Positions 51,842 to 64,000 of a DNA stretch of 64,000 bases are shown piece after piece. The notes beneath the pieces are model-generated. The model was given only the letters and a program-made list of their open reading frames with translations, was not told the origin of the DNA and made no database searches. The first letter of the stretch is position 1. The number at the start of each line of letters is the position of its first letter. The DNA is from Cyclobacteriaceae bacterium (GTDB taxonomy: Bacteria > Bacteroidota > Bacteroidia > Cytophagales > Cyclobacteriaceae). Made by a program: the position numbers and the translations under genes. The stretch covers positions 744,001 through 808,000 of the forward strand of contig JAHBTX010000003.1 in assembly GCA_019638395.1 (NCBI GenBank), written 5' to 3'.

Positions 51842-52441
51842 TCAGGAATGGCGTTCTTTTAATACTTTAACAACATCACTCAATTCATAACCTTTGGCAG
51901 TAAGCAGCACTAGGTAATGATACATGAGGTCCGCTGCTTCTCCTAAAAACAAATCAGGGTTGTTGTCTTTTGCTTCAATTACAAGTTCCACAGCTTCTTC
52001 ACCAACTTTTTGTGCCACCTTGTTTATTCCCGCATCCAGTAATTGGTTGGTATAAGAGCCTACTTTAGGATTTGCTTTTCTATTTTTAATAATTGCCTCC
52101 AGAAATGCTAAACCATCAATTTGATTTTTCTCTTCAAAACACGTATCAGCCCCGGTGTGGCAAGCTGGGCCTTTTGGTTTTACTTTAAACAATAACGTAT
52201 CGTTATCGCAATCCAGCAGCACATCTTCCAGCAATAGAAAATTTCCAGATGTTTCACCTTTTGTCCACAACCTTTTTTTAGAACGACTATAAAACGTAAG
52301 TTTTTTTTCTGCTAATGTTTTAGCAAGTGCTTCAGGATTCATGAACCCAAGCATAAGCACTTTACTTGTAATTGAATCCTGTACCACGCATGGCACAAGA
52401 CCATTCGATTTCTCGAAATTAACTTTAGATAAATCAATCAT
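51842..52441 (-). CDS. hisIE: Bifunctional phosphoribosyl-AMP cyclohydrolase / phosphoribosyl-ATP pyrophosphatase
   Basis: 199 aa. The N-terminal HisI domain (about 1-105) has the zinc/catalytic segment GPACHTGADTCFEEK and VLLDCDNDTLLFKV. The C-terminal HisE domain (about 112-199) carries KVGEEAVELVIEAKD and EAADLMYHYLVLL. It carries out steps 2 and 3 of histidine synthesis. This is the last gene of the his operon, six bases after hisF. Confidence 0.97.
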   Translation of the reverse strand: MIDLSKVNFEKSNGLVPCVVQDSITSKVLMLGFMNPEALAKTLAEKKLTFYSRSKKRLWTKGETSGNFLLLEDVLLDCDNDTLLFKVKPKGPACHTGADTCFEEKNQIDGLAFLEAIIKNRKANPKVGSYTNQLLDAGINKVAQKVGEEAVELVIEAKDNNPDLFLGEAADLMYHYLVLLTAKGYELSDVVKVLKERHS

Positions 52442-52447
52442 AGGTAT

Positions 52448-53203
52448 TTAGATTCGGATGGGGATACCATTCCCATTAAGGTACGACTTTAGTTCAGGAA
52501 TGGAAAGTTCACCAAAATGAAAAAGTGAAGCGGCCAATGCTGCATCGGCTTTTCCCAACGTAAATGCATGAATAAAATGTTCTTTGTTACCGGCACCTCC
52601 GGAAGCAATTACAGGAATATCCAATAACTCATTTAACTTAACCAGCGGATCGATGGCAAAGCCTTGTTTGGTTCCGTCATGATCCATACTGGTAAATAAA
52701 ATTTCTCCGGCCCCGCGGTTCTGACCTTCGTGCGCCCACGAAAATAATTTTTTATCGGTAGGATTACGCCCACCGTGGGTGTGTACCGTCCATTGATTGG
52801 CAATTTTTCGCGCATCAATTGCCAACACCACAAACTGCGACCCGAAAGCTTTGGCGAGATCATCAATTAATTGCGGGTTTCGCACCGCAGCCGAGTTGAT
52901 ACTGATTTTATCGGCACCCGCTTCCAACAAAGGTTCTACGTCAGCAACGGAACTAATGCCCCCGCCAACGGTAAACGGAATGTTTACATGCCGGGCAATG
53001 TCTCTAACCAGTTCAACAAATGTTTTACGATTATCGTTGGTGGCAGTAATATCCAGAAATACCAGTTCGTCAGCACCTTGTTCTGCATAGCTTGCACCTA
53101 ACTCAACAGGGTCGCCTGCATCGCGTATGTTAACAAAGTTTACACCTTTAACGGTTCGCCCATTTTTAATATCGAGGCAGGGAATGATGCGTTTGGTAAG
53201 CAA
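52448..53203 (-). CDS. hisF: Imidazole glycerol phosphate synthase, cyclase subunit
   Basis: 251 aa, a (beta/alpha)8 barrel that uses ammonia from HisH to make IGP and AICAR from PRFAR. Visible motifs: [20 protein letters not shown] (1-20, catalytic Asp11), [20 protein letters not shown], and [13 protein letters not shown] holding the second catalytic Asp (about residue 175). Phosphate-binding VIASGGAGN follows. Lies 11 bases after hisA. Confidence 0.98.
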
Positions 53204-53214
53204 AGTGGAATAAA

Positions 53215-53937
53215 TTAAGAGTTCTGAAAAGCTTTGAGGTCTTCCAATCTTATTTTGCCTTCGTAAATAGCCTTACCAATAATAACACCATATACTTTAG
53301 CATACTTTAATTCTTCCAGGTCGTGCAGGTTACTTACACCACCACTGGCAACAACCTTTAGTTTTGGAAATTTGTTGATGAGCTTTTTATAAAGTCCGAT
53401 GTTAGGGCCTTCCAGCATGCCATCGGTGCTGATGTCGGTACAGGTTAAATATTCCAGACCCTCGGCTTCAAACCTACTCACCAGATCAAACAGCCTGAAC
53501 TTGGTGTCTTCCAGCCAACCGTTGATAGCCACGTTTCCATTTTTTACATCGGCACTTAAAACAAAATTTTCAGTACCGTATTTCTTTAACCATTTGCTGA
53601 ATGTTTCAGGTTCTTTAACGGCCATACTTCCGATGTTAATCTGATGCACCCCCAGATCAAGCAGTTGTTCTACTTCGGCTTCGGTTTTTACGCCACCTCC
53701 AAAATCAACACTTAAGGCTGTCTTCTCCTGAATATCCCGAATCACTTCCCAATTAACGACATGGCCAACGCGCGCGCCATCTAAATCTACCAGATGCAGA
53801 CAATCCAGGTCTGCATCCTGAAATTCTAATGCTACTTCTACCGGATCTTCGCGATACACTTTTTTCTTGCCGTAGTCACCTTGTGTTAAGCGCACACACT
53901 TACCATCAATAATGTCGATTGCGGGAATAATTCGCAT
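53215..53937 (-). CDS. hisA: ProFAR isomerase
   Basis: 240 aa, a (beta/alpha)8 barrel homologous to HisF. It isomerises ProFAR to PRFAR. The catalytic Asp is in [20 protein letters not shown] (Asp8), and the second Asp lies in [15 protein letters not shown] (about 171). Phosphate-binding VVASGGVSN and [15 protein letters not shown] are present. Three bases separate it from hisH. Confidence 0.97.
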
Positions 53938-53940
53938 GTC

Positions 53941-54525
53941 CTACGATTGCTTTAAAAATGAACGTATTATTTTTTCGCCTACTGTGGCCGATTTTTCAGG
54001 ATGAAACTGAACGGCATAAAAATTATCTTTTTTCATGGCGGCACTGAATGGCTGAATATATTCTGTAATAGCTGATGTGTAGGCATTAACCGGTACAAAA
54101 TAACTATGTACAAAGTAAACAAATTTATTGGCTACATCACTATCTAACCAACTGTGTGTTGGTGTAAGCGAGTTCCATCCCATGTGTGGTACTTTTTCGT
54201 GCTGTAGCGGTTGAAATTTTTTAACCTGTTCATCAAACACACCAATGCAAGGTGTATCATTTTCTTCTGAATAAGAGCAAAGCAATTGCATACCCAAACA
54301 AATGCCTAACACCGGTTGTTTAAGTTCTTTTATCAATACATCCAACTTTCGGTCTTTCAGATAGCGCATGGTGGTATTGGCTTCGCCTACTCCAGGAAAA
54401 ATTACTTTATCAGCTTTTTGAATTTCTTCTGGATTATCGGTAATGGAGAAATCAACGTGCAATCTTTCCAGTGCAAAAGCTACTGAGCGAATGTTGCCTG
54501 CGTTGTATTTGATTACGGCTATCAT
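53941..54525 (-). CDS. hisH: Imidazole glycerol phosphate synthase, glutamine amidotransferase subunit
   Basis: 194 aa, a class I glutaminase that feeds ammonia to HisF. The nucleophile Cys is in LGICLGMQLL (about 74-83), and the His/Glu pair is in AVQFHPEKSAT (about 172-182). Its start follows a 154-base gap after hisB, the largest gap in the operon, filled with iterated intergenic sequence. Confidence 0.97.
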   Translation of the reverse strand: MIAVIKYNAGNIRSVAFALERLHVDFSITDNPEEIQKADKVIFPGVGEANTTMRYLKDRKLDVLIKELKQPVLGICLGMQLLCSYSEENDTPCIGVFDEQVKKFQPLQHEKVPHMGWNSLTPTHSWLDSDVANKFVYFVHSYFVPVNAYTSAITEYIQPFSAAMKKDNFYAVQFHPEKSATVGEKIIRSFLKQS

Positions 54526-54679
54526 ACTGGCTTCTGGTCTCTGGTTACTTGTTTCTGGTTTCTGGTTAATTACTCCTATCTTATTAAGTTACTTTCTAAT
54601 TGAAGATTGTTGAATACTTGTTACTGATTACCGAATACTGATTACTTCTTACCAACCACCGCTTACTGCTACCTTTCAA
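54526..54679. repeat. Degenerate iterated sequence inside the his operon (hisB-hisH gap)
   Basis: Reading the plus strand: CTGGCTTCTGGTCTCTGGTT, ACTTGTTTCTGGTTTCTGG, then GTTACTGATTACCGAATACTG, ATTACTTCTTACCAACCACC. The same units recur in other gaps of the window. No ORF, no clear terminator. Confidence 0.65.
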
Positions 54680-55798
54680 TCACAGAGTCCCCTTCGTGCT
54701 GGGCAATTGATCATTGAACGGATTTTTTCGCACGGCCATTTTAATCGCTTTCGCGAATGCTTTAAAGATAGCCTCAATCTTATGGTGCTCGTTGGTGCCT
54801 TCTGCTTTAATGTTCAGGTTGCATTTTGATGTATCCGAAAATGATTTAAAGAAGTGATAAAACATTTCTGTTGGCATCTCACCAATTTTTTCGCGCTTAA
54901 ATTCAGCTTCCCATACTAACCACGGGCGACCTCCAAAATCAATTGCTACTTGTGCCAGGCAATCATCCATCGGTAAACAAAAGCCGTAGCGCTCAATACC
55001 TTTCTTGTCGCTTAATGCCTGTTGAAATGCATCACCTAAAGCCAGTGCGGTGTCTTCTATGGTATGATGTTCATCAATATGCAAATCACCTTTTACACTT
55101 ATTTCCAGGTCAATAAGTCCATGTCGTGCTAATTGATCTAACATGTGATCATAGAAACCCAAACCCGTACTTATTTTTGATTTACCGGTTCCATTCAGGT
55201 TAACGGTAATAGCAATGTCCGTTTCTTTTGTTGTTCTGCGAATAGAAGCGCTTCGTGGAATTACGACATCATAAATATCTTTCCAATTAGTGGTAATGCT
55301 AACACAATGTCCGGTCAGATTTTTTTCTTCCAGTTTGGAAGCGAGGGAACCATCGTTAATTAAGATACCTTTTGCACCCAGGTTTTTAGCAAGTTCAATA
55401 TCGGTAATCCGATCGCCAATTACATACGAGTTGGTAAGATCATACTCGCTACTAAAGTAGGAGGTGAGCATACCTGTACCCGGTTTGCGTGTAGGTTTGT
55501 TTTCATGTGGCATGGAACGATCAACATGAACGGCAGAAAAGTGAATGCCTTCACCCGATAGCGTATCGGCTATCAGATTTTGTACTGGCCAGAATGTTTC
55601 CTCCGGAAAGGATGCTGTGCCTAATCCGTCCTGGTTGGTAACCATCACTAATTCATAATCGGTTTCGCGGGCAATACGACCAAGCCATGTAAAGACACCC
55701 GGAATAAATTTTACTTTACTCAGGCTATCAATCTGTGGATCATCGGCTGGTTCTACAATCAATGTTCCGTCACGGTCAATAAAAAGTACTTTTTTCAT
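54680..55798 (-). CDS. hisB: Bifunctional histidinol-phosphatase / imidazoleglycerol-phosphate dehydratase
   Basis: 372 aa. The N-terminal HAD phosphatase (about 1-165) begins [20 protein letters not shown] with nucleophile Asp8 and has the four-ligand zinc-like region around [17 protein letters not shown]. The C-terminal IGP dehydratase (about 175-372) shows [31 protein letters not shown] and [19 protein letters not shown] with the manganese-binding histidines. The fusion is the same as in Enterobacteriaceae. It overlaps hisC by four bases. Confidence 0.97.
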
Positions 55799-56826
55799 AA
55801 CGCACTAAGTTCGCGAATTAAGATTTGATTTTCAGTGGGTGTTCCTACTGTTATGCGTAAACAATTGTCGCATAAAACTACATTCGAGCGGTCGCGTACA
55901 ATCACTCCGCGTTCAACTAATTTTTGATATACTTTAGCAGCAGCGGAAATTTTCACTAAGAGAAAGTTGGCATCGGAAGGATAAACGTGCTGCACCGTTT
56001 TAAGCTTCTGGAGTTCAACTTGTAATTTCGATCGTTCTTCAATAATCTGCTTTACCCACTTATTTTTTTCAGTTTCTTTATCTAATGCTTCGCTCGCAAC
56101 TTTTTGTGAGAGTAAACTGATATTGTATGGAGCCTTGATCTTATTCAATACCTGAATAATTTCTTTCGAAGCAAAACAAATTCCCAATCGGATAGCAGCA
56201 AGTCCCCAGGCCTTTGATAAAGTCTGGAGTACAACAAGGTTGGGATAACGATTCAACAGCGGCACAAAACCATTATAATCGGTAAAGTCAATATAAGCTT
56301 CGTCCACAATAACCAAACCCTTAAATTCACTTAATATCTTTTCTATTCGTGATTGGGTAAGCAAATTGCCGGATGGATTATTGGGACTGCATAGAAAAAT
56401 CAGTTTAGTGTTAGTATCGCACGTGGTCAATGTCTGTTCAACGTCCACATCAAACTGATTGGTAAGATTTATGGTTTTGATCGCTACGTTATTAATGTTG
56501 GCGCTTACCGTGTACATGCCATAGGTAGGCTGGGGGATAACTACGTTGTCAATTCCTGGTTCGCAGCATGCACGGAAAAGCAAATCGATTGGTTCATCGC
56601 TGCCATTACCTAAGAATATATTTTCGGGATTGACTTTCTTAATATGACCCAATTTCTTTTTCAATTCAACCTGATGTGGATCGGGGTAACGATTGTAACC
56701 AGTTTCAAAAGGGTTCTCATTAGCATCGAGGTAAACTGATGCCTGGCCCTGAAATTCATCACGAGCTGATGAATACGGCTTCAGGTTCAAAACATTTTTT
56801 CTAACTAACTTCTGTAGATCGAACAT
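55795..56826 (-). CDS. hisC: Histidinol-phosphate aminotransferase
   Basis: 343 aa, a fold type I PLP enzyme. The PLP lysine is in [14 protein letters not shown] (about 207-220). Other conserved segments are [49 protein letters not shown] and [10 protein letters not shown]. It converts imidazole acetol phosphate to histidinol phosphate. It starts 65 bases after hisD and ends overlapping hisB. Confidence 0.97.
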
Positions 56827-56891
56827 ACTGGCTGGTTACTGGTCTCTGGCTATTGGTTTCTTGTTGCTGGTTACCGATTTCTGTTTACTAT
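56827..56891. repeat. Degenerate iterated sequence inside the his operon (hisC-hisD gap)
   Basis: Units CTGGCTGGTTACTGGTCTCT, GGCTATTGGTTTCTTG and TTGCTGGTTACCGATTTCTG fill the gap and match the vocabulary of the hisB-hisH gap and of 28169-28338. Confidence 0.65.
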
Positions 56892-58172
56892 TTACTTAAA
56901 ACTTAATCTAACCCGGACTGCTTGTGCATGCGCCTTTAATTGTTCAGCTTCTGCCATTGTCTCTACGACCGGGCCTATAATCTTTAGTCCGGCTTTCGTT
57001 ATTTCCTGCACCGTTATGTACTTCGTAAAGCTTTCCAATGAAACGCCACCAAATGCTTTTGCAAATCCATTGGTGGGTAAGGTATGGTTAGTACCCGATG
57101 CGTAATCGCCTGCGGCTTCCGGAGTATAGGCACCTAAAAAGATAGAGCCCGCATTAATTATCTTTTCCTCCAGGTCTTTGTTGTTAGCGGTATTGATGAT
57201 GAGGTGTTCGGGTGCGTAAGCATTCACAAAGTCAATCATAGCAGTTTCACCTGCAAATGAAATGGATAAGCTATTATTCAAAGCTTCCAGTGCCAGTTCT
57301 TTTCGAGGAAGTGATACCAATTGATTAGCAACTTCACTTTGAACTTTGTCTAAGATAGTTTGTGTGGTGGATACCAACACTACCTGACTATCTATACCAT
57401 GCTCGGCCTGTGATAATAGATCAGCAGCTACAAAAGCTGGATTGGAATTTTCATCTGCAATCACCAAAACTTCTGATGGGCCTGCGGGCATATCAATGGC
57501 AATACCCAGCTGACTCACAAGCTGTTTGGCTTTTGTTACATATTGATTTCCAGGCCCAAAGATTTTACTAACCGAAGGAATACGCTCGGTTCCAAAAGCC
57601 ATAGCCGCTATTGCTTGTGCGCCACCCACTTTAAAAATTTTGGTCACACCAGTAAGTTGAGCGGCAAAAAGTATGGCGGGGTTGATAACACCTTTTTTGT
57701 CGGGCGGTGAGCAGAGAATAACTTCCTTGCAGCCTGCCAAGCGTGCCGGAATAGCTAACATTAATACTGTTGAGAATAATGGCGCGGTTCCTCCTGGAAT
57801 ATAAATTCCAACTTTTTGAATAGGAGTAGCCTTGCGCCAGCAGGTAACACCGGGCATGGTTTCTATTTTTTCCACGCTTCGCTTTTGCGCGGCATGAAAC
57901 ACTTCAATGTTTTTGGCTGCTGTTAGAATAGCTGCCTTTAGTTCGCCCGATAAGGATTGAACAGCCGCAGTAATTTCGGATTCAGTTACCTGTAGATTCT
58001 CTAATGTTACTCCGTCAAATTTTTGTGTGAGTTCAAGAACGGCAGCATCGCCCGACTTACGGACCCGCTCCAATATGTTGTTTACATTTCCTTCCAGAAA
58101 GTCTAACTCAAGCTGCGGACGTTGGCATAATTCGGGCCAGGTGTTGGTGGGTGGATTTACAATTCGTTTCAT
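56892..58172 (-). CDS. hisD: Histidinol dehydrogenase
   Basis: 426 aa. A zinc enzyme that oxidises histidinol to histidine in two NAD steps, the end of the pathway. Conserved segments: VGIYIPGGTAPLFSTVLMLA, KVGGAQAIAAMAFGTE, GPGNQYVTKAKQLVSQ, DMPAGPSEVLVIAD, DLLSQAEHGIDSQVVLVS (zinc and catalytic residues) and GDYASGTNHTLPTNGFAKAF. Eleven bases separate it from hisG. Confidence 0.98.
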   Translation of the reverse strand: MKRIVNPPTNTWPELCQRPQLELDFLEGNVNNILERVRKSGDAAVLELTQKFDGVTLENLQVTESEITAAVQSLSGELKAAILTAAKNIEVFHAAQKRSVEKIETMPGVTCWRKATPIQKVGIYIPGGTAPLFSTVLMLAIPARLAGCKEVILCSPPDKKGVINPAILFAAQLTGVTKIFKVGGAQAIAAMAFGTERIPSVSKIFGPGNQYVTKAKQLVSQLGIAIDMPAGPSEVLVIADENSNPAFVAADLLSQAEHGIDSQVVLVSTTQTILDKVQSEVANQLVSLPRKELALEALNNSLSISFAGETAMIDFVNAYAPEHLIINTANNKDLEEKIINAGSIFLGAYTPEAAGDYASGTNHTLPTNGFAKAFGGVSLESFTKYITVQEITKAGLKIIGPVVETMAEAEQLKAHAQAVRVRLSFK

Positions 58173-58183
58173 TAGTCGGTAGT

Positions 58184-59041
58184 TTAGAGAATCATTTTTT
58201 CGATTGGAATAACCAGAATGCCTTCGGCACCGAATGATTTCAATTGTCCGATTTTTTCCCAGAAATCATTTTCATCCACCACAGAATGTAACGATGACCA
58301 ACCTTCACGCCCCAGCGGCAATATGGTAGGGCTCTTCATACCTGGAATTACAGACGTAATTTTTGGAATAGCTTCGTTGGGGCAATTCAGTAAAATGTAT
58401 TTGTTGTTTTTAGCTAACTGCACCGCCTGAATCCGGAACAGCAGTTGTTCTAAAATACTTTGCTTACTACTTTCCAATTCGGGTGTGGCAATCAACACAG
58501 CTTCCGATTGCATTACAATCTCTACTTCTTTCAAGCCATTGCTAAGCAATGTACTACCGGTACTTACGATATCGCAAATGGCATCGGCCAGCCCAATACC
58601 CGGAGCAATTTCTACGGAGCCGCTTATCTCGTGGATGTCGGCCTGCACATTATTCTTTTGCAAAAACTGTTTAACGATGGTAGGATAGGAGGTGGCAATG
58701 TTCTTGCCTTGTAGCCACGTTACTCCGGTGTATTCTTCGGAGCGTGGAATGGCAATAGAAAGTCGGCAGCGGGAAAAGTCGAGGCGTTTGATTAGCTGAT
58801 TTTGTTTCTGTTTTTCGATCCACACATTTTCACCTACAATGCCTACATCGGCCACGCGGTCTTCTACATATTGTGGAATATCATCATCGCGTAGAAATAG
58901 CAGTTCGATAGGGAGGTTGCGTACCTGGGCTTTCAGCTGATCGCGCCCATTGCTGAACTGAAGTCCGCTTTCTTTTAAAAGTTTGAGGGAGTCTTCCTGC
59001 AGGCGACCGGATTTTTGAATGGCAATTCGTAGTTGAGTCAT
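58184..59041 (-). CDS. hisG: ATP phosphoribosyltransferase (long form)
   Basis: 285 aa. It catalyses the first, feedback-controlled step of histidine synthesis. The length and the C-terminal ACT-like region (about 215-285) mark the long, HisZ-independent form, which is inhibited by histidine. Motifs include IAIQKSGRLQEDSLKLLKES, DVGIVGENVWIEK and the PRPP-binding DAICDIVSTGSTLLSNGL (about 155-172). The start codon lies 18 bases downstream of the attenuator hairpin's U-tract. Confidence 0.97.
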   Translation of the reverse strand: MTQLRIAIQKSGRLQEDSLKLLKESGLQFSNGRDQLKAQVRNLPIELLFLRDDDIPQYVEDRVADVGIVGENVWIEKQKQNQLIKRLDFSRCRLSIAIPRSEEYTGVTWLQGKNIATSYPTIVKQFLQKNNVQADIHEISGSVEIAPGIGLADAICDIVSTGSTLLSNGLKEVEIVMQSEAVLIATPELESSKQSILEQLLFRIQAVQLAKNNKYILLNCPNEAIPKITSVIPGMKSPTILPLGREGWSSLHSVVDENDFWEKIGQLKSFGAEGILVIPIEKMIL

Positions 59042-59058
59042 AAAGTTAATTCTAAAAC

Positions 59059-59093
59059 AAAAAAGGCTTACCAGTTGTTGGCAAGCCTTTTTT
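59059..59093 (-). terminator. his operon attenuator terminator
   Basis: On the minus strand GGCTTGCCA and TGGTAAGCC form a 9-bp stem (one G-U) around ACAAC, followed by TTTTTTG. It lies between the His-rich leader peptide and hisG. The same 5' arm can instead pair with TGGCAA inside the leader ORF (59128-59133), giving an antiterminator. Confidence 0.9.
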
Positions 59094-59114
59094 CAAATTT
59101 TGGTTATGATTAAA

Positions 59115-59186
59115 TCAAAACAAAGCATTGCCACCCATGTTGGTAACGTGATGGTGGTGGCCGTGTATGTTTTGTGTGTTTTTCAT
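59115..59186 (-). CDS. hisL: Histidine operon leader peptide
   Basis: 23 codons from ATG (59184-59186) to TGA (59115-59117). The peptide begins MKNTQNIHGHHHHV, with His at positions 8, 10, 11, 12 and 13, and ends NMGGNALF. It is followed by a terminator and then hisG. This is the layout of a transcription attenuator: when charged tRNA-His is scarce the ribosome stalls on the His codons, leaving GGUGGCAA free to pair with the 5' arm of the terminator. A competing leader hairpin GCCACC / GGUGGC (59156-59161 with 59130-59135) is also present. The gene is too short for ordinary gene callers. Confidence 0.9.
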   Translation of the reverse strand: MKNTQNIHGHHHHVTNMGGNALF

Positions 59187-59281
59187 TTTGATGGCTCAAA
59201 ACAACAGAATTGTTTCAAGATGTCAAAATGAAATAGTGAGAAAGTTTGGGCTAACGGGTGTTATTGAAGGAAAGTTAACAC

Positions 59282-59422
59282 TTAACATCTTCCTTTCGGT
59301 ACACAGATTTTTGTACCGTCTTGTAAAGTACATTCATCCATGTCATCCGGGGAACCTTTATCTTCACAGGCAATGGATAAAGATGCTACTAATAATAAAG
59401 CGATATTAATAACTCTTTTCAT
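59282..59422 (-). CDS. Small cysteine-containing lipoprotein (46 aa)
   Basis: ATG at 59420-59422, stop TAA at 59282-59284. The N-terminus MKRVINIALLLVASLSIAC is a compact lipoprotein signal with lipobox SIAC (Cys19). The mature part is only 28 residues: an acidic stretch EDKGSPDDMDE, then CTLQDGTKICVPKGRC with three cysteines. It lies 95 bases upstream of the his leader on the same strand. No family recognised. Evidence is the excellent signal sequence and lipobox in a gap otherwise without a gene. Confidence 0.65.
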   Translation of the reverse strand: MKRVINIALLLVASLSIACEDKGSPDDMDECTLQDGTKICVPKGRC

Positions 59423-59477
59423 AAGAAACAGATTTTAGGTTTCTCTAAGTTAAACAGAATGTTGCGACTTTAAAACA

Positions 59478-60224
59478 TTATACTCGTTTCCTCCCCATCC
59501 ACACCCCTAAATATCCAATCATCGAAAACACAAACCCGATAAACCCGAATACAAAAATTAAAATGTATCGTTCGGAGATCATGTTAATTACTACATCCTT
59601 CGGGTTGTCCGGATTGATAAACAATTCAACTTGCTCGCCAATCTCAACGGCTGGTGGGTTGGAATAAGTAGAGCCCTGGTAAGTCATTTTGGTACCTTTC
59701 CAGGTGTATTCAATAACCGGAGCAGCACCACTTCCGCTACCCATGCCATAATACAAATCAACTACTTCGCCACTGGCTGGTACTGCCTTGGATGTAAACT
59801 GGTAATCGGTCCAAAGCCAGTACATGCTTAAAAGCATAAACAGTGTTCCTAATCCTGCAAAGAGTAGAAACACAATACCAGCCGGACTTTTTGGGAGTGA
59901 GAAACCAAAACGGGTATCAGCTGCATCTACCAATTCCTTGGCTTGCTTTAATGAAATCTGGTATTCATTCATCACCATTTTAACGGCCTGTATTTTATTG
60001 TTGGATCGAAGCAAATCCTCCACACGGGCTCGCATTTGAGCAGGTGAAACGGTTGATGTATGGGTTCCTGGTACAATTGAAGTTTCTCCGGCCAGGTATT
60101 GAACCCACTCTTTAGCATCGAATAAGGAAAGTTGATGCTCTTTACACAAAAACTGAATGGCTTCCAATTTTTGTCCGCGTTGCAGTAGTTCTTTTATTTT
60201 GGTTTGTAATTGGGGCGGCAACAT
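59478..60224 (-). CDS. DUF3592-like membrane protein with two L7/L12-like helical repeats
   Basis: 248 aa from the ATG at 60224; the upstream in-frame start would add 12 residues. Two similar helical units precede the membrane part: KIKELLQRGQKLEAIQFLCK (about 8-27) and RVEDLLRSNNKIQAVKMVMN (about 67-86) followed by ISLKQAKELVDA, which resembles the ribosomal L7/L12 C-terminal helix pair. Membrane helices at about 117-140 and 220-243 flank an extracytoplasmic DUF3592-type beta domain (about 145-215; ASGEVVDLYYGMGSGSGAAP, GEQVELFINPDNPKDVV). Function unknown. Confidence 0.8.
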   Translation of the reverse strand: MLPPQLQTKIKELLQRGQKLEAIQFLCKEHQLSLFDAKEWVQYLAGETSIVPGTHTSTVSPAQMRARVEDLLRSNNKIQAVKMVMNEYQISLKQAKELVDAADTRFGFSLPKSPAGIVFLLFAGLGTLFMLLSMYWLWTDYQFTSKAVPASGEVVDLYYGMGSGSGAAPVIEYTWKGTKMTYQGSTYSNPPAVEIGEQVELFINPDNPKDVVINMISERYILIFVFGFIGFVFSMIGYLGVWMGRKRV

Positions 60225-60376
60225 ACTGTTTAGAGTTAGTTGTAAGGTGAATCTACACATCTATCCATAAATATAAAACCTTATCTCAACAATCATTTCG
60301 GATAAACGGGTGTAGAATTAGCCGAAGTCATTTCTTATTATTTGCAAGTATTGTACAACCTGAATTAATTTTAAGC

Positions 60377-63300
60377 ATGTGTGTTCGCCAGGTGCTTGTA
60401 TGGTTTTGCCTTCTGTTGGGTTGGATAAGCGGTTATGCGCGGCAAATTGAGTTTGTCGAAAACAAATGCCAGTGGCCCGATGCTGTAATGTTTAAGGCGC
60501 GCATTCCGGGTGGTACCATGCAGCTTCAATCCACCGGGTTTAGTTACACATTTCTGGATTATGGGCGGCTTCAACATCTGCACGAGTTAGGTCATGGAAC
60601 ACCCAACGAATCGTACGGCACAAATTCTGTTGCGTTAATTGATGGGCATCGGGTGGACGTGGCATTTATAAACGCAAATCAATATGCTAATGCTCATCCC
60701 GTTGGTAAACTACCCCGTTATTACAATTACTTTTTAGGTTCCGATCCATCGGTATGGGCTTCGCATGCAAATGCTTTTGAAGCAGTGTATTATACCGATT
60801 ATTATGCGGGTATTGATTTAAAAGTGTATAGCCAAGGCAAGCACATCAAATATGATTTTTATGTTGCTGCCGGAGCTAATCCTTCGCAAATAAAATTTAT
60901 TTATACAGGCACCGATCGTATCTATTTGCAGGAGGGTAATTTACACATCAAGGCTTCTACGTTTTCGTTTACCGAGCAAAAACCGGTGGCGTGGCAACAG
61001 GTAGGAAGTGAAAAGAAATTTATCAGGTGTGAATTTGCGCTGAATAACGCTTCTGTAGAGTTTGTTTTCCCGGAAGGTTATGACTCTTGCTACCCACTTA
61101 TAATTGATCCACTCCTCATCTTTTCTACTTATAGCGGTTCAACAGCTGATAATTGGGGCAGCACTGCTACACCTGGAGAACAAGGAAGTCTTTATTCAGC
61201 AGGAGTAACCAATCACAATCTGGGCGGATTTTTCCCGGCTACTCCGGGTGCATTTCAAACTACCACCAGCGGGGCTTACGATGTAGCTATTCTTAAATAT
61301 GATTCTGCAGGCACTGATTTATTATATGCTACCTACCTCGGGGGCTCCAATGGCGAATCGCCTCACAGTTTAATAATAGATGAAGCTAAAAACCTATGGA
61401 TACTGGGAACCACAAGCTCGGCCAACTTCCCCACTACGGCCGGGGCAATTGACAATACCTACAACGGTGGTATTGGTTTGTTTAATGTAATTTTTTACGA
61501 AACCGGCTCTGATATTTTTGTGGCGAAGTTGAGTGCCGATGGAAGTCAGTTGTTGGCCAGTACGTATTTAGGCGGCTCTAATAACGATGGCCTCAACCCC
61601 ATTAACAGTCCACTGGTGCGCAACTATGGCGATGAATTGCGGGGCGATATTATAGTCAATTCTCAGGGCGATATCTATATCAGTACAGTTACGAGTTCAA
61701 CAGATTTTCCGGGTTCAAACAGTTTTAGTACAGCGTATCGGGGTGGTGTTACCGATGCCGTAATCATGCACCTGGATGCATCGCTTACACAAATTAAGTG
61801 GTCGGCTTTTTTGGGTGGTACTGGTGCTGATGCCTCGCATACCATAAAGCTTACAGCCAGCGATGATGTTTGGGTGGCTGGCGGCTCTACCAGCACCGAT
61901 TTTCCCACCACACCGGGTGTTTACCAGACTGCCCTGGCTGGCAATGCCGATGGTTGGATGGCCAAAATAAAAGCCGATGGCTCTGAAATAATGAAAGCTT
62001 CTTTTACAGGAACAGTCCAATACAATCAGGTTTATTTTATTGATCTTGATTTGGATGAAAATGTGTATGTATATGGACAAACCCAAGGACCATTTCCTAT
62101 AACAGCAGGAGTTTTTTCAAACCCCAATAGCGGTCAGTTCTTACAAAAATTTGATAAAGATCTTACCACACTTTTATTCTCTACGGTATTTGGTGCAGGC
62201 CGCGGCATACCGGATATTTCACCAACGGCATTTCTGGTTAACGATTGTAACAACATTTACATGAGTGGATGGGGTGGGGCCATTAATACTTCGCGTGGAT
62301 TCTGGAACAGTGGCACTGCCGGAATGCCCATTACTTCCGATGCGTTTCAAAAAACAACTGCCGGTTCTGATTTTTATTTTATTGTACTTACCGATGATGC
62401 GAGCGAAATGTTGTACGGAACATTTCTGGGTGGCAATCAATCGCCCGTACATGTAGATGGAGGCACCAGCCGGTTTGATAAAGGTGGAATTGTATATCAC
62501 TCGGTGTGTGGCGGATGTGGTGGTGGGTTTGATGACTTCCCTACAACAGCCAATGCCTGGAGCCGGTTAAACCGAAGTCAGAATTGTAATAACGCTGCTT
62601 TTAAATTTGATCTATCCTCATTAAAGGCCCGTATTCAAACCAATAGCATTACCTTTGATATGCCGGGTTTAAACCGGGTGTGTATTCCCGATCCAATTGT
62701 GTTTCAAAACCTGAGTACGGGTGGCCGTATTTACGAATGGAACTTTGGTGATGGCGGCCAGTTGGTAAAACAAGATACCACTTTTATCATGCATCGGTAT
62801 AAACAACCAGGAACGTATCGCATAAAACTGTTAGCCATTGATGCCGGAACGTGTGTTGGCATGGATTCAACTTTTGCACAAGTTGTAGTAACGGAGGCGG
62901 CAGGCTCGGCCGGGCCCGATGTAGATATGTGTTTCAATGCCGGTACGCAACTTACAGCCACAGGTGGCTTTACGTATTCATGGATTAATTATAACAGAAC
63001 CTTTACATCAAATGAACAAGCACCGCATGTAAACCCTGCCGATGATGAAGTTTACATCGTGACGATAGCCGATTTTAATGGCTGCGTGAAAAAAGATACC
63101 GTTCATGTTCGGGTTATTCCAGGTGTAGAGTTGGACTTTAGTTTCTCTAAAACTTACGATTGCTTTAATCGACCTACTATCCAGGTTCAGAATCTGCTGC
63201 CTTCTGGTGAGCAGGTATTTTTTGATTTTGGTGATGGCAACACTTCTGATCTGGATCAAACAGTACATCAATACCAGCAGGATGGCACTTATTCCGTTAA

Positions 63301-63622
63301 ACTGGTCGGCCTTAAGGAATCATGTATTTATGAAAAAGCTGTAAGCATACCGGTTTATGAGTTGAAGGTTCCGAATGTAATAACACCCGATGAATATCAG
63401 GAGAACAATAAGTTTGTTATTCAATATGGGACTAATAAACTTTCAGCCTCAGCACTAACTGCACGCGTAGTTATAGTAAACCGATGGGGTAAGAAAGTAT
63501 TTGAAAGTGAGAACTATCAAGACGATTGGGATGCGGCTAATGTAGAAGCAGGGATGTACTTTTATGAAATTCAGATTCCGGGTGAAGCCGTTTGTAAAGG
63601 TTGGTTGCATGTAATAAAATAG
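60377..63622 (+). CDS. Secreted SBBP/PKD-repeat protein with T9SS (gliding-type) C-terminal domain
   Basis: 1081 aa. Signal peptide 1-22. N-terminal domain (about 23-235) of the type IEFVENKCQWPDAVMFKARI, found on many Bacteroidota surface proteins. SBBP-like propeller repeats at about 300-700: TYLGGSNGESPHSLIID, STYLGGSNNDGLNPI, AFLGGTGADASHTIKL. Two PKD domains: EWNFGDGGQ near 780 and FFDFGDGNTSD near 948. The C-terminus (about 997-1081; VPNVITPDEYQENNKFVIQY, IVNRWGKKVFES, AGMYFYEIQI) is the CHU_C/type B T9SS sorting domain. Probably an adhesin or matrix protein. Confidence 0.92.
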   Translation: MCVRQVLVWFCLLLGWISGYARQIEFVENKCQWPDAVMFKARIPGGTMQLQSTGFSYTFLDYGRLQHLHELGHGTPNESYGTNSVALIDGHRVDVAFINANQYANAHPVGKLPRYYNYFLGSDPSVWASHANAFEAVYYTDYYAGIDLKVYSQGKHIKYDFYVAAGANPSQIKFIYTGTDRIYLQEGNLHIKASTFSFTEQKPVAWQQVGSEKKFIRCEFALNNASVEFVFPEGYDSCYPLIIDPLLIFSTYSGSTADNWGSTATPGEQGSLYSAGVTNHNLGGFFPATPGAFQTTTSGAYDVAILKYDSAGTDLLYATYLGGSNGESPHSLIIDEAKNLWILGTTSSANFPTTAGAIDNTYNGGIGLFNVIFYETGSDIFVAKLSADGSQLLASTYLGGSNNDGLNPINSPLVRNYGDELRGDIIVNSQGDIYISTVTSSTDFPGSNSFSTAYRGGVTDAVIMHLDASLTQIKWSAFLGGTGADASHTIKLTASDDVWVAGGSTSTDFPTTPGVYQTALAGNADGWMAKIKADGSEIMKASFTGTVQYNQVYFIDLDLDENVYVYGQTQGPFPITAGVFSNPNSGQFLQKFDKDLTTLLFSTVFGAGRGIPDISPTAFLVNDCNNIYMSGWGGAINTSRGFWNSGTAGMPITSDAFQKTTAGSDFYFIVLTDDASEMLYGTFLGGNQSPVHVDGGTSRFDKGGIVYHSVCGGCGGGFDDFPTTANAWSRLNRSQNCNNAAFKFDLSSLKARIQTNSITFDMPGLNRVCIPDPIVFQNLSTGGRIYEWNFGDGGQLVKQDTTFIMHRYKQPGTYRIKLLAIDAGTCVGMDSTFAQVVVTEAAGSAGPDVDMCFNAGTQLTATGGFTYSWINYNRTFTSNEQAPHVNPADDEVYIVTIADFNGCVKKDTVHVRVIPGVELDFSFSKTYDCFNRPTIQVQNLLPSGEQVFFDFGDGNTSDLDQTVHQYQQDGTYSVKLVGLKESCIYEKAVSIPVYELKVPNVITPDEYQENNKFVIQYGTNKLSASALTARVVIVNRWGKKVFESENYQDDWDAANVEAGMYFYEIQIPGEAVCKGWLHVIK

Positions 63623-63624
63623 TT

Positions 63625-63927
63625 ATGATTTATATAACACAACTCATTTACATTATTCCGGGTCAGGAAGATGTGTTTGAACAATTTGAGGCAGTAGCCA
63701 TTCCGATCATTTCAAAGTACAACGGCAAACTATTGTTCCGGGTGCGCCCGGATGCTGCTGCATTCATTGGCCCCCATACCGAAAGGCCTTACGAAATTCA
63801 TCTGGTTGAATTTTTAACTGATCAGGACTTTGAGGACTTTAAACACGATGCGGAACGAAAGAAATTTCTGCATTTGAAAGAACAATCAATTCGGGCATCG
63901 GTAATGATTGTGGGAACAAGGCTTTAA
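63625..63927 (+). CDS. DUF1330-like small protein
   Basis: 100 aa from the ATG at 63625, two bases after the preceding stop; an in-frame start at 63601 inside the upstream gene is less likely. It has a dimeric alpha/beta-barrel (ferredoxin-like) pattern: TQLIYIIPGQEDVFEQFEAV, IISKYNGKLLFRVRP, YEIHLVEFLTDQDFEDFKHD, and a closing strand SVMIVGTRL. Family members are of unknown function. It is probably co-transcribed with the large secreted protein. Confidence 0.8.
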   Translation: MIYITQLIYIIPGQEDVFEQFEAVAIPIISKYNGKLLFRVRPDAAAFIGPHTERPYEIHLVEFLTDQDFEDFKHDAERKKFLHLKEQSIRASVMIVGTRL

Positions 63928-64000
63928 GGTTAATCAAATTCAAAGCAAGCTGTACTGAGTTAGCAAGTTTTTGATCGCACATCCTTTTACTATAGACACG

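Follow-up and report, generated by a model that had tools for sequence, protein, structure and literature searches.

A probable ribosome-mediated transcription attenuator in front of the histidine operon of a Cyclobacteriaceae bacterium

The histidine operon of this Cyclobacteriaceae bacterium is preceded by an element that we take, with a probability of about 0.94 judged from sequence and comparison, to be a genuine ribosome-mediated transcription attenuator. The attenuator looks complete, and its mechanism is the ordinary one. The original prediction, made for this DNA from its letters alone, had claimed a complete attenuator here; the claim is supported by the parts of the element, by conservation of the His run and by co-evolution of the pairing arms, and all the elements it listed were found in place on the minus strand. 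The window referred to below is the whole stretch of 64,000 nucleotides that was analysed.

Organization of the leader region

On the minus strand of the window, a promoter match, a 23-codon leader, a terminator and hisG follow one another in this order (Table 1). The genes directly behind the leader belong to histidine biosynthesis: hisG, starting at 59041, and seven more. Judging from gene spacing, hisGDCBHAF-hisIE (59041 to 51842) is probably a single transcript. When the whole window was searched for small ORFs that carry amino acid runs and precede a terminator, five candidates were returned, among which the his leader terminator is the strongest (-17.7, the others being -9.6 to -14.2).

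Table 1. Features of the his leader region and of the operon; positions are those of the window.
Feature	Position	Strand	Remarks
-33 promoter element TTTG	59224..59227	-	consensus match
-7 promoter element TTGTTTTG	59197..59204	-	consensus TAnnTTTG, 5/6 positions matched
Leader ORF, 23 codons, MKNTQNIHGHHHHVTNMGGNALF	59115..59186	-	stop TGA 59117-59115
Regulatory codons CAC GGC CAC CAC CAT CAC	59148..59165	-	5 His in 6; H-G-H-H-H-H
Region 1, 5' arm of leader (protector) hairpin	59155..59175	-	includes GCCACC 59161-59156
Region 2, partner of region 1 (protector) or region 3 (antiterminator)	59114..59138	-	core GGTGGCAA; reaches leader stop
Region 3, terminator 5' arm and flanks	59075..59097	-	core TTGCCA 59084-59079
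Intrinsic terminator hairpin 3:4	59059..59093	-	15 bp, loop 5; predicted
U-tract TTTTTTGTTTT	59054..59064	-	sequence read
hisG	58184..59041	-	first operon gene; TIGR00070 197.9 bits, cut-off 75.75
hisD	56892-58172	-	above NCBIfam cut-off, TIGR00069
hisC	55795-56826	-	above NCBIfam cut-off, TIGR01141
Bifunctional hisB	54680-55798	-	above NCBIfam cut-off, NF003937
hisH	53941-54525	-	above NCBIfam cut-off, TIGR01855
hisA	53215-53937	-	above NCBIfam cut-off, TIGR00007
hisF	52448-53203	-	above NCBIfam cut-off, TIGR00735
Bifunctional hisIE	51842-52441	-	above NCBIfam cut-off, NF002747

The predicted 23-codon ORF with five His in six residues was re-read by coordinate on the minus strand and is present as described; ten codons lie between the His run and the leader end. 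Thus the leader is a short ORF with a run of the cognate codon, and across 193 upstream regions such runs are specific to the sense strand (see below). Inspection by eye revealed no Shine-Dalgarno site ahead of the leader. Together with a presumed 5' UTR of a few bases, this means that prompt translation has to be assumed. Translation initiation in Bacteroidota relies little on Shine-Dalgarno sites.

The promoter match consists of TTTG at 59227-59224, a spacer of 19 and a -7 element at 59204-59197, and it ends 10 nt before the leader ATG. This promoter-like arrangement, TTTG-N19-TTnnTTTG, is also present upstream of the leader in relatives. The pattern TTTG-N18..22-TAnnTTTG with a score of 9 or 10 of 10, at most 20 nt from the leader ATG, was found at 36 of 63 type-A loci, versus 1.94 per 63 in shuffled sequences. 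Identical upstream sequences were counted once in this test, and L232, L235, L236, L238, L239 and L246, as well as loci lacking a leader or a terminator, were left out. The Bacteroidota consensus TTTG / TAnnTTTG is quoted in PMC7366714, according to which no -33 element was found in F. johnsoniae (both as given in the available passages). Transcription probably starts a few nucleotides ahead of the leader ATG. A start site located after the leader, which had been named as a finding that would speak against the attenuator, is not favoured given the promoter match upstream of the leader here and in relatives; moreover, a further promoter would hardly fit into the 17 nt that separate the terminator from hisG.

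Predicted alternative structures of the leader RNA

Three helices, 1:2, 2:3 and 3:4, are all able to form according to the sequence and its comparison with relatives, and they are mutually exclusive. Their duplex energies in the window are -20.1, -16.0 and -22.1 kcal/mol, respectively. The protector hairpin 1:2 takes in the regulatory codons. Both complementarities noted earlier were recovered: GCCACC/GGTGGC, proposed as an alternative leader hairpin, at 59161-59156 and 59135-59130, and TGGCAA, complementary to TTGCCA, at 59133-59128 and 59084-59079. The RNA from leader to terminator folds with -37.9 kcal/mol (z -4.79), and since none of 200 shuffled sequences folded as well, the fold is not due to chance.

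Between the leader and hisG lies a predicted intrinsic terminator, with a stem at 59093-59059 followed by the U-tract. Its core GGCTTGCCA/TGGTAAGCC comprises 9 bp with one G-U pair, in agreement with the 9-bp terminator and U-tract originally described, and flanking A-U pairs extend the predicted stem to 15 bp (59093-59079 / 59073-59059). The placement of hisG shortly after it was also correct, but its start at 59041 is 17 bases past the last paired base of the terminator, not 18.

The mechanism would be as follows. Transcription would begin a few bases ahead of the leader ATG, and the 23-codon leader would then be entered by a ribosome. If charged His-tRNA is scarce, the ribosome would stall on the His codons and mask region 1; region 2 would then be free to form the 2:3 antiterminator, and RNA polymerase would continue into the his genes. 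If His-tRNA is ample, the ribosome would run on to the leader stop (TGA), at the end of region 2, and cover this region, allowing the 3:4 terminator to form. If the leader is not translated, 1:2 would form and termination would again result. The geometry fits both states: while the ribosome sits on the His codons, region 1 would be covered but region 2 (59138-59114) would stay accessible, and once the ribosome has moved to the TGA (59117-59115), region 2 would be covered. The known size of the ribosome footprint was used for these positions; stalling, footprint and histidine response of the leader are all deduced.

The leader might instead govern the translation of hisG, with the downstream hairpin hiding the hisG start and stalling opening this hairpin. 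Only 17 nt separate the hairpin from the hisG ATG that follows it, and some attenuators elsewhere do act on translation (PMC9413887, available passages). Against this, the hairpin carries a long U-tract and the hisG start lies outside it, and in relatives the terminators end 10 to 180 nt from hisG, likewise with a U-tract, although the latter is a condition of the filter by which they were found. Translational control is therefore regarded as very improbable.

Distribution of the leader

HisG was detected in 112 of the 148 order genomes and in 93 of the 98 family genomes, 198 distinct genomes altogether, from which 193 hisG upstream regions were read (the partial regions of G051, G110 and G213, as well as G175 and G183, were left out). 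ATG-initiated small ORFs with at least four His in seven codons occur in 85 of the 193 regions on the sense strand and in none on the reverse strand, and at a rate of 0.35 per 193 regions after dinucleotide shuffling. With at least three His in seven codons, the numbers are 105, 2 and 3.75. At the threshold of four, the sense strand carries runs of Ala more often than those of any other residue except His, in 11 of 193 regions. On the reverse strand of the same regions, Met reaches 41, which is expected because CAT read backwards is ATG. By the rule of an ATG start and at least three His in seven codons, the leader is absent from 88 of the 193 order and family regions.

Terminators were accepted if dG was at most -9 and the 8 bases following the stem began with TT and contained at least 6 T. 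Of the 105 leaders, 32 pass this strict filter and 30 were kept; L115 and L132 were excluded by eye because of irregular, G+C-rich stems. A leader without a terminator was thus recorded in 73 of the 193 regions, where "without" means none at the filter, as weak terminators can be missed by it.

A contig scan of named relatives gave 54 loci, of which 53 were analysed (L244, a fragment without a start, was left out). A His-run leader was found at 46 of the 53, and 44 also have a terminator. The same layout is present in Chryseolinea, Chryseosolibacter and Pseudochryseolinea, as well as in one Prevotella MAG; Chryseolinea serpens (L229) and Pseudochryseolinea flava (L212) are among the species that have both leader and terminator. 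In one Cyclobacteriaceae MAG (L194), whose HisG is 100% identical, the leader peptide is identical and its codons show five synonymous changes and no other. Conservation of the His run, proposed as a check, is thus seen in many relatives; the residues outside the run are variable among them. Seven named loci have no leader by the rule: the close relatives L209 and L247, and L230, L231, L233, L241 and L242. L209 and L247 both have a terminator; in L209, the leader frame is kept with only two His, and in L247, IHGHHH is kept with TTG in place of the start ATG. Two Parabacteroides loci, L234 and L237, have the leaders MQRFHLHSHHHHNGR and MQQFLLHSHHHHNGR without a terminator at the filter; a strong hairpin with a poor U-tract can be noted after each of these leaders.

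In the class, which we take to be the wide class Bacteroidia of GTDB (the NCBI taxonomy places Cyclobacteriaceae in Cytophagia), a HisG match was obtained for 72 of the 159 genomes. Forty regions of these 72 genomes, from the same class and 29 families but not from the same order, were sampled, and 39 were analysed (L280, without a start by the rule, was left out). The His-run leader is present in 33 of the 39 hisG regions, and a terminator as well in 30. At least four His were found in 28 of 39 regions on the sense strand and in none on the reverse strand (0.1 in shuffled sequences), and at least three in 33 and 3, respectively (1.65 shuffled).

Co-evolution of the pairing regions

The pairing arms of 30 Cytophagales loci were compared by exchanging partners between loci, with region 2 taken up to 6 nt past the leader stop. 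The mean energy of 2:3 with its own partner is -15.15 kcal/mol versus -11.20 with swapped partners, and that of 1:2 is -15.21 versus -12.11; in both cases, 0 of 5000 permutations did as well. For the control pair 1:3, the values are -5.68 versus -5.28, with 419 of 5000. The effect of the own partner is one of the mean: the own arm ranks within the top three of 30 at 9 loci for 2:3 and at 12 for 1:2, and weak helices occur at L039 (2:3 -3.1, 1:2 -1.1) and L176 (-5.8 and -5.8).

Similar results were obtained for 30 loci outside the order, with region 2 allowed up to 20 nt past the stop and GTG/TTG leader starts permitted: -15.85 versus -11.88 for 2:3 (0/5000), -15.20 versus -12.07 for 1:2 (0/5000), and 4143/5000 for the control 1:3. 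Given the kinship among the sequences, which are not independent, none of the swap counts given here or in the next paragraph is to be read as a probability.

An alignment of 43 loci showed pairing in 80% of the cells of the 2:3 core versus a swap mean of 75%, and 0 of 2000 swaps did as well. One core position shows C-G, G-C, T-A and A-T, and others show G-C/A-T or C-G/T-A; the three outer positions are paired in 56-65% only. The 2:3 antiterminator, exclusive with the terminator, is thus backed by co-variation. Compensatory changes, which the original prediction had recommended looking for in the 2:3 and 3:4 stems, are found in the arms of 2:3 and 1:2, together with partner specificity.

These data also bear on the possibility that the ORF encodes a small functional His-rich, metal-binding peptide followed by an ordinary terminator, without any regulation. 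The His run is conserved and metal binding would be possible in principle; however, the residues beyond the run vary, and both the position before hisG and the co-evolution of 1:2 and 2:3 would be left without a role. This explanation is even less credible than translational control.

Rfam search and covariance model

An Rfam scan of 52000-64000 at E<=5 gave three matches, none above its family cut-off. Two fall on the leader stretch, Thr_leader with 25.3 bits and Phe_leader with 26.2 bits (cut-off 55 each), and the third is unrelated. The Rfam his leader models had been suggested as a check: His_leader (RF00514) is not listed for 52000-64000 at E<=5. Among 15 loci scanned with RF00514, only L188 matched, with 33.8 bits versus a cut-off of 49. 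A T-box or metabolite riboswitch sensing tRNA or histidine directly, with the ORF incidental, has a precedent in T-box control of his genes in Firmicutes (PMC9413887, available passages), but neither is among the three Rfam matches, and we give this explanation next to no weight.

A covariance model, R1, was built from the 43 aligned loci. It scores the window with 132.5 bits, a value that is partly so by construction, as near relatives are in the training set; the next place in the same genome has 29.4 bits (best among 150 of 2804 first-look candidates). Four weaker places inspected by eye comprised three ordinary terminators and one coding sequence. A score above 30 bits on the hisG strand was reached by 28 of the 53 loci outside the training set, and 23 of these 28 come from the 40 class loci. 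An antisense match of 41.9 bits at L258 means that scores of 30-42 bits alone are no proof of membership; much of the R1 score is contributed by the terminator, which is alike on both strands. The alignment and the model could help to annotate his leaders that an Rfam scan leaves unnamed.

Leaders without a detectable terminator

Many Cytophagales have His-run leaders without a terminator detectable at the filter. At L017, L137, L142, L153, L155, L163 and others, the leaders end with HH.HHSS-stop, the stop codon lies inside a TTCCTC/GAGGAA hairpin, and a near-fixed spacer leads to ATATYGCCC, with no terminator at the filter. The core CAYCAYTCCTC-(2-8)-GAGGA was found in 35 of 193 regions and in none of the 193 reverse strands. 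In 36 rows of a looser pattern, which include the unrelated L091, an ATATYG-like motif follows GAGGA at a distance of 11 in 21 rows, 14 in 3, 10 in 2, 12 in 1 and 3 in 2, with no motif in 7. In the two rows with a distance of 3, an earlier match was taken, and ATATCG stands there at 14.

Alignment with MAFFT and RNAalifold gave no consensus structure for the 37 terminator-less loci. A scan for long-range pairing at 31 of the 37 loci showed several apparent signals, with counts of 0 (lead:his), 2 (lead:mid1), 0 (lead:mid2) and 5 (mid2:start) of 2000. In a run at 24 loci (without L052, L092, L115, L119, L124, L128 and L185), the counts were 166 (lead:mid), 795 (mid:start) and 4989 (lead:start) of 5000, and no mechanism was drawn from such pairing. 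At L147, L155, L163 and L164, a block like TTTTGATACTAAACGTATATTGCATMC immediately precedes the hisG ATG; it is possibly a second promoter or start-site element.

A joint reading can be put forward tentatively, though we hold it to be rather doubtful. Classical His attenuators may form one broad RNA family of this Bacteroidota class, with near-leaderless leader ORFs, and in a good part of Cytophagales they may have been replaced by a derived HH.HHSS-stop device, in which the hairpin TTCCTC-NTAA-GAGGAA contains the last codons and the stop, the spacer to ATATYGCCC is nearly fixed and an intrinsic terminator is absent at the filter. As such a device has no terminator at the filter, the histidine signal would take another route (pausing, Rho or translation). 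If the joint reading is true, near-leaderless His leaders would imply close coupling of transcription and translation in this class.

Comparison with known attenuators

With the his leader of E. coli and its relatives (RF00514), the element shares the his operon, a short leader ORF bearing a run of His codons and the logic of protector, antiterminator and terminator (the logic as described in the available passages of PMC9413887). It differs in that ten codons follow the His run here and the leader would start a few nucleotides past the transcription start. The His attenuators of Firmicutes (B. cereus group, Eubacteriales, Erysipelotrichales; PMC9413887, same passages) also have a leader with His codons, an antiterminator and a terminator; however, they belong to another phylum and contain three to five consecutive His codons. 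A further case is Flavobacterium psychrophilum, of the same phylum, with strong clues for leader-peptide attenuation of amino acid operons and a conserved 5' element at hisG without an Rfam family, found in other Flavobacteriaceae too (PMC9723704, 2021); it is of another family and was studied from transcription maps, and no His leader is shown in the available passages. Bacteroid-trp (RF01692) is a candidate cis-regulatory RNA of Bacteroidetes (listed in Weinberg 2010, available passages); it had 0 matches in the genome studied here, and Bacteroides-1 (RF01694) also had none (150 first-look candidates scored for each, of 574 for RF01692).

The literature is cited here from the passages available. 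To the knowledge of its authors, PMC2965389 (2010) names leader-peptide systems as shown only in Proteobacteria and Actinobacteria, ermC aside, and adds Firmicutes. PMC3766115 (2013) suggests that a gamma-proteobacterial origin is possible for the Rfam amino acid attenuator motifs. In PMC8305728 (2021), on the his genes of this superphylum, attenuation appears once, for E. coli and Salmonella, and PMC9413887 (2022) names his attenuators for Proteobacteria and some Firmicutes. Small ORFs of B. thetaiotaomicron reminiscent of leader peptides are mentioned in PMC7366714. The original prediction held that the mechanism is little discussed in this phylum. In the searchable literature, his attenuation is indeed little described there; however, leader-peptide attenuation before amino acid operons was already proposed from transcriptome data for F. 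psychrophilum (PMC9723704), and the idea is not new for the phylum and cannot be called unreported. An alignment of His leaders across the class, or a case from Cytophagales, was not found in the open literature searched. A study by Lopatovskaya from 2010 may deal with Bacteroidetes.

The his leader would be a sequence-defined sensor of charged His-tRNA for a phylum whose amino acid regulation is little described in the literature searched. With it, one could also test directly by genetics if the leading ribosome is close behind RNA polymerase in Bacteroidota.

Possible leaders of other amino acid operons

No convincing leader was seen upstream of the acetolactate synthase gene (L298) and three aspartokinase-like genes (L300-L302) of the same genome. 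Before one of the latter (L301, G000:C12:180753-182063), a terminator-like hairpin (-17.9) was noted, and the upstream sequence also has small ORFs containing three Thr or three Met. On the minus strand at G000:C1:639525-640856 (L294), MIKLIHAAWWWHKSKFDW is followed by a hairpin, GAAGGCCCGCTG/CAGTGGGCCTTC, with a poorer U-tract, and then by a trpE-like gene, which scores 416 bits for TIGR00564, below the cut-off of 518. This arrangement is likely a trp counterpart of the his leader.
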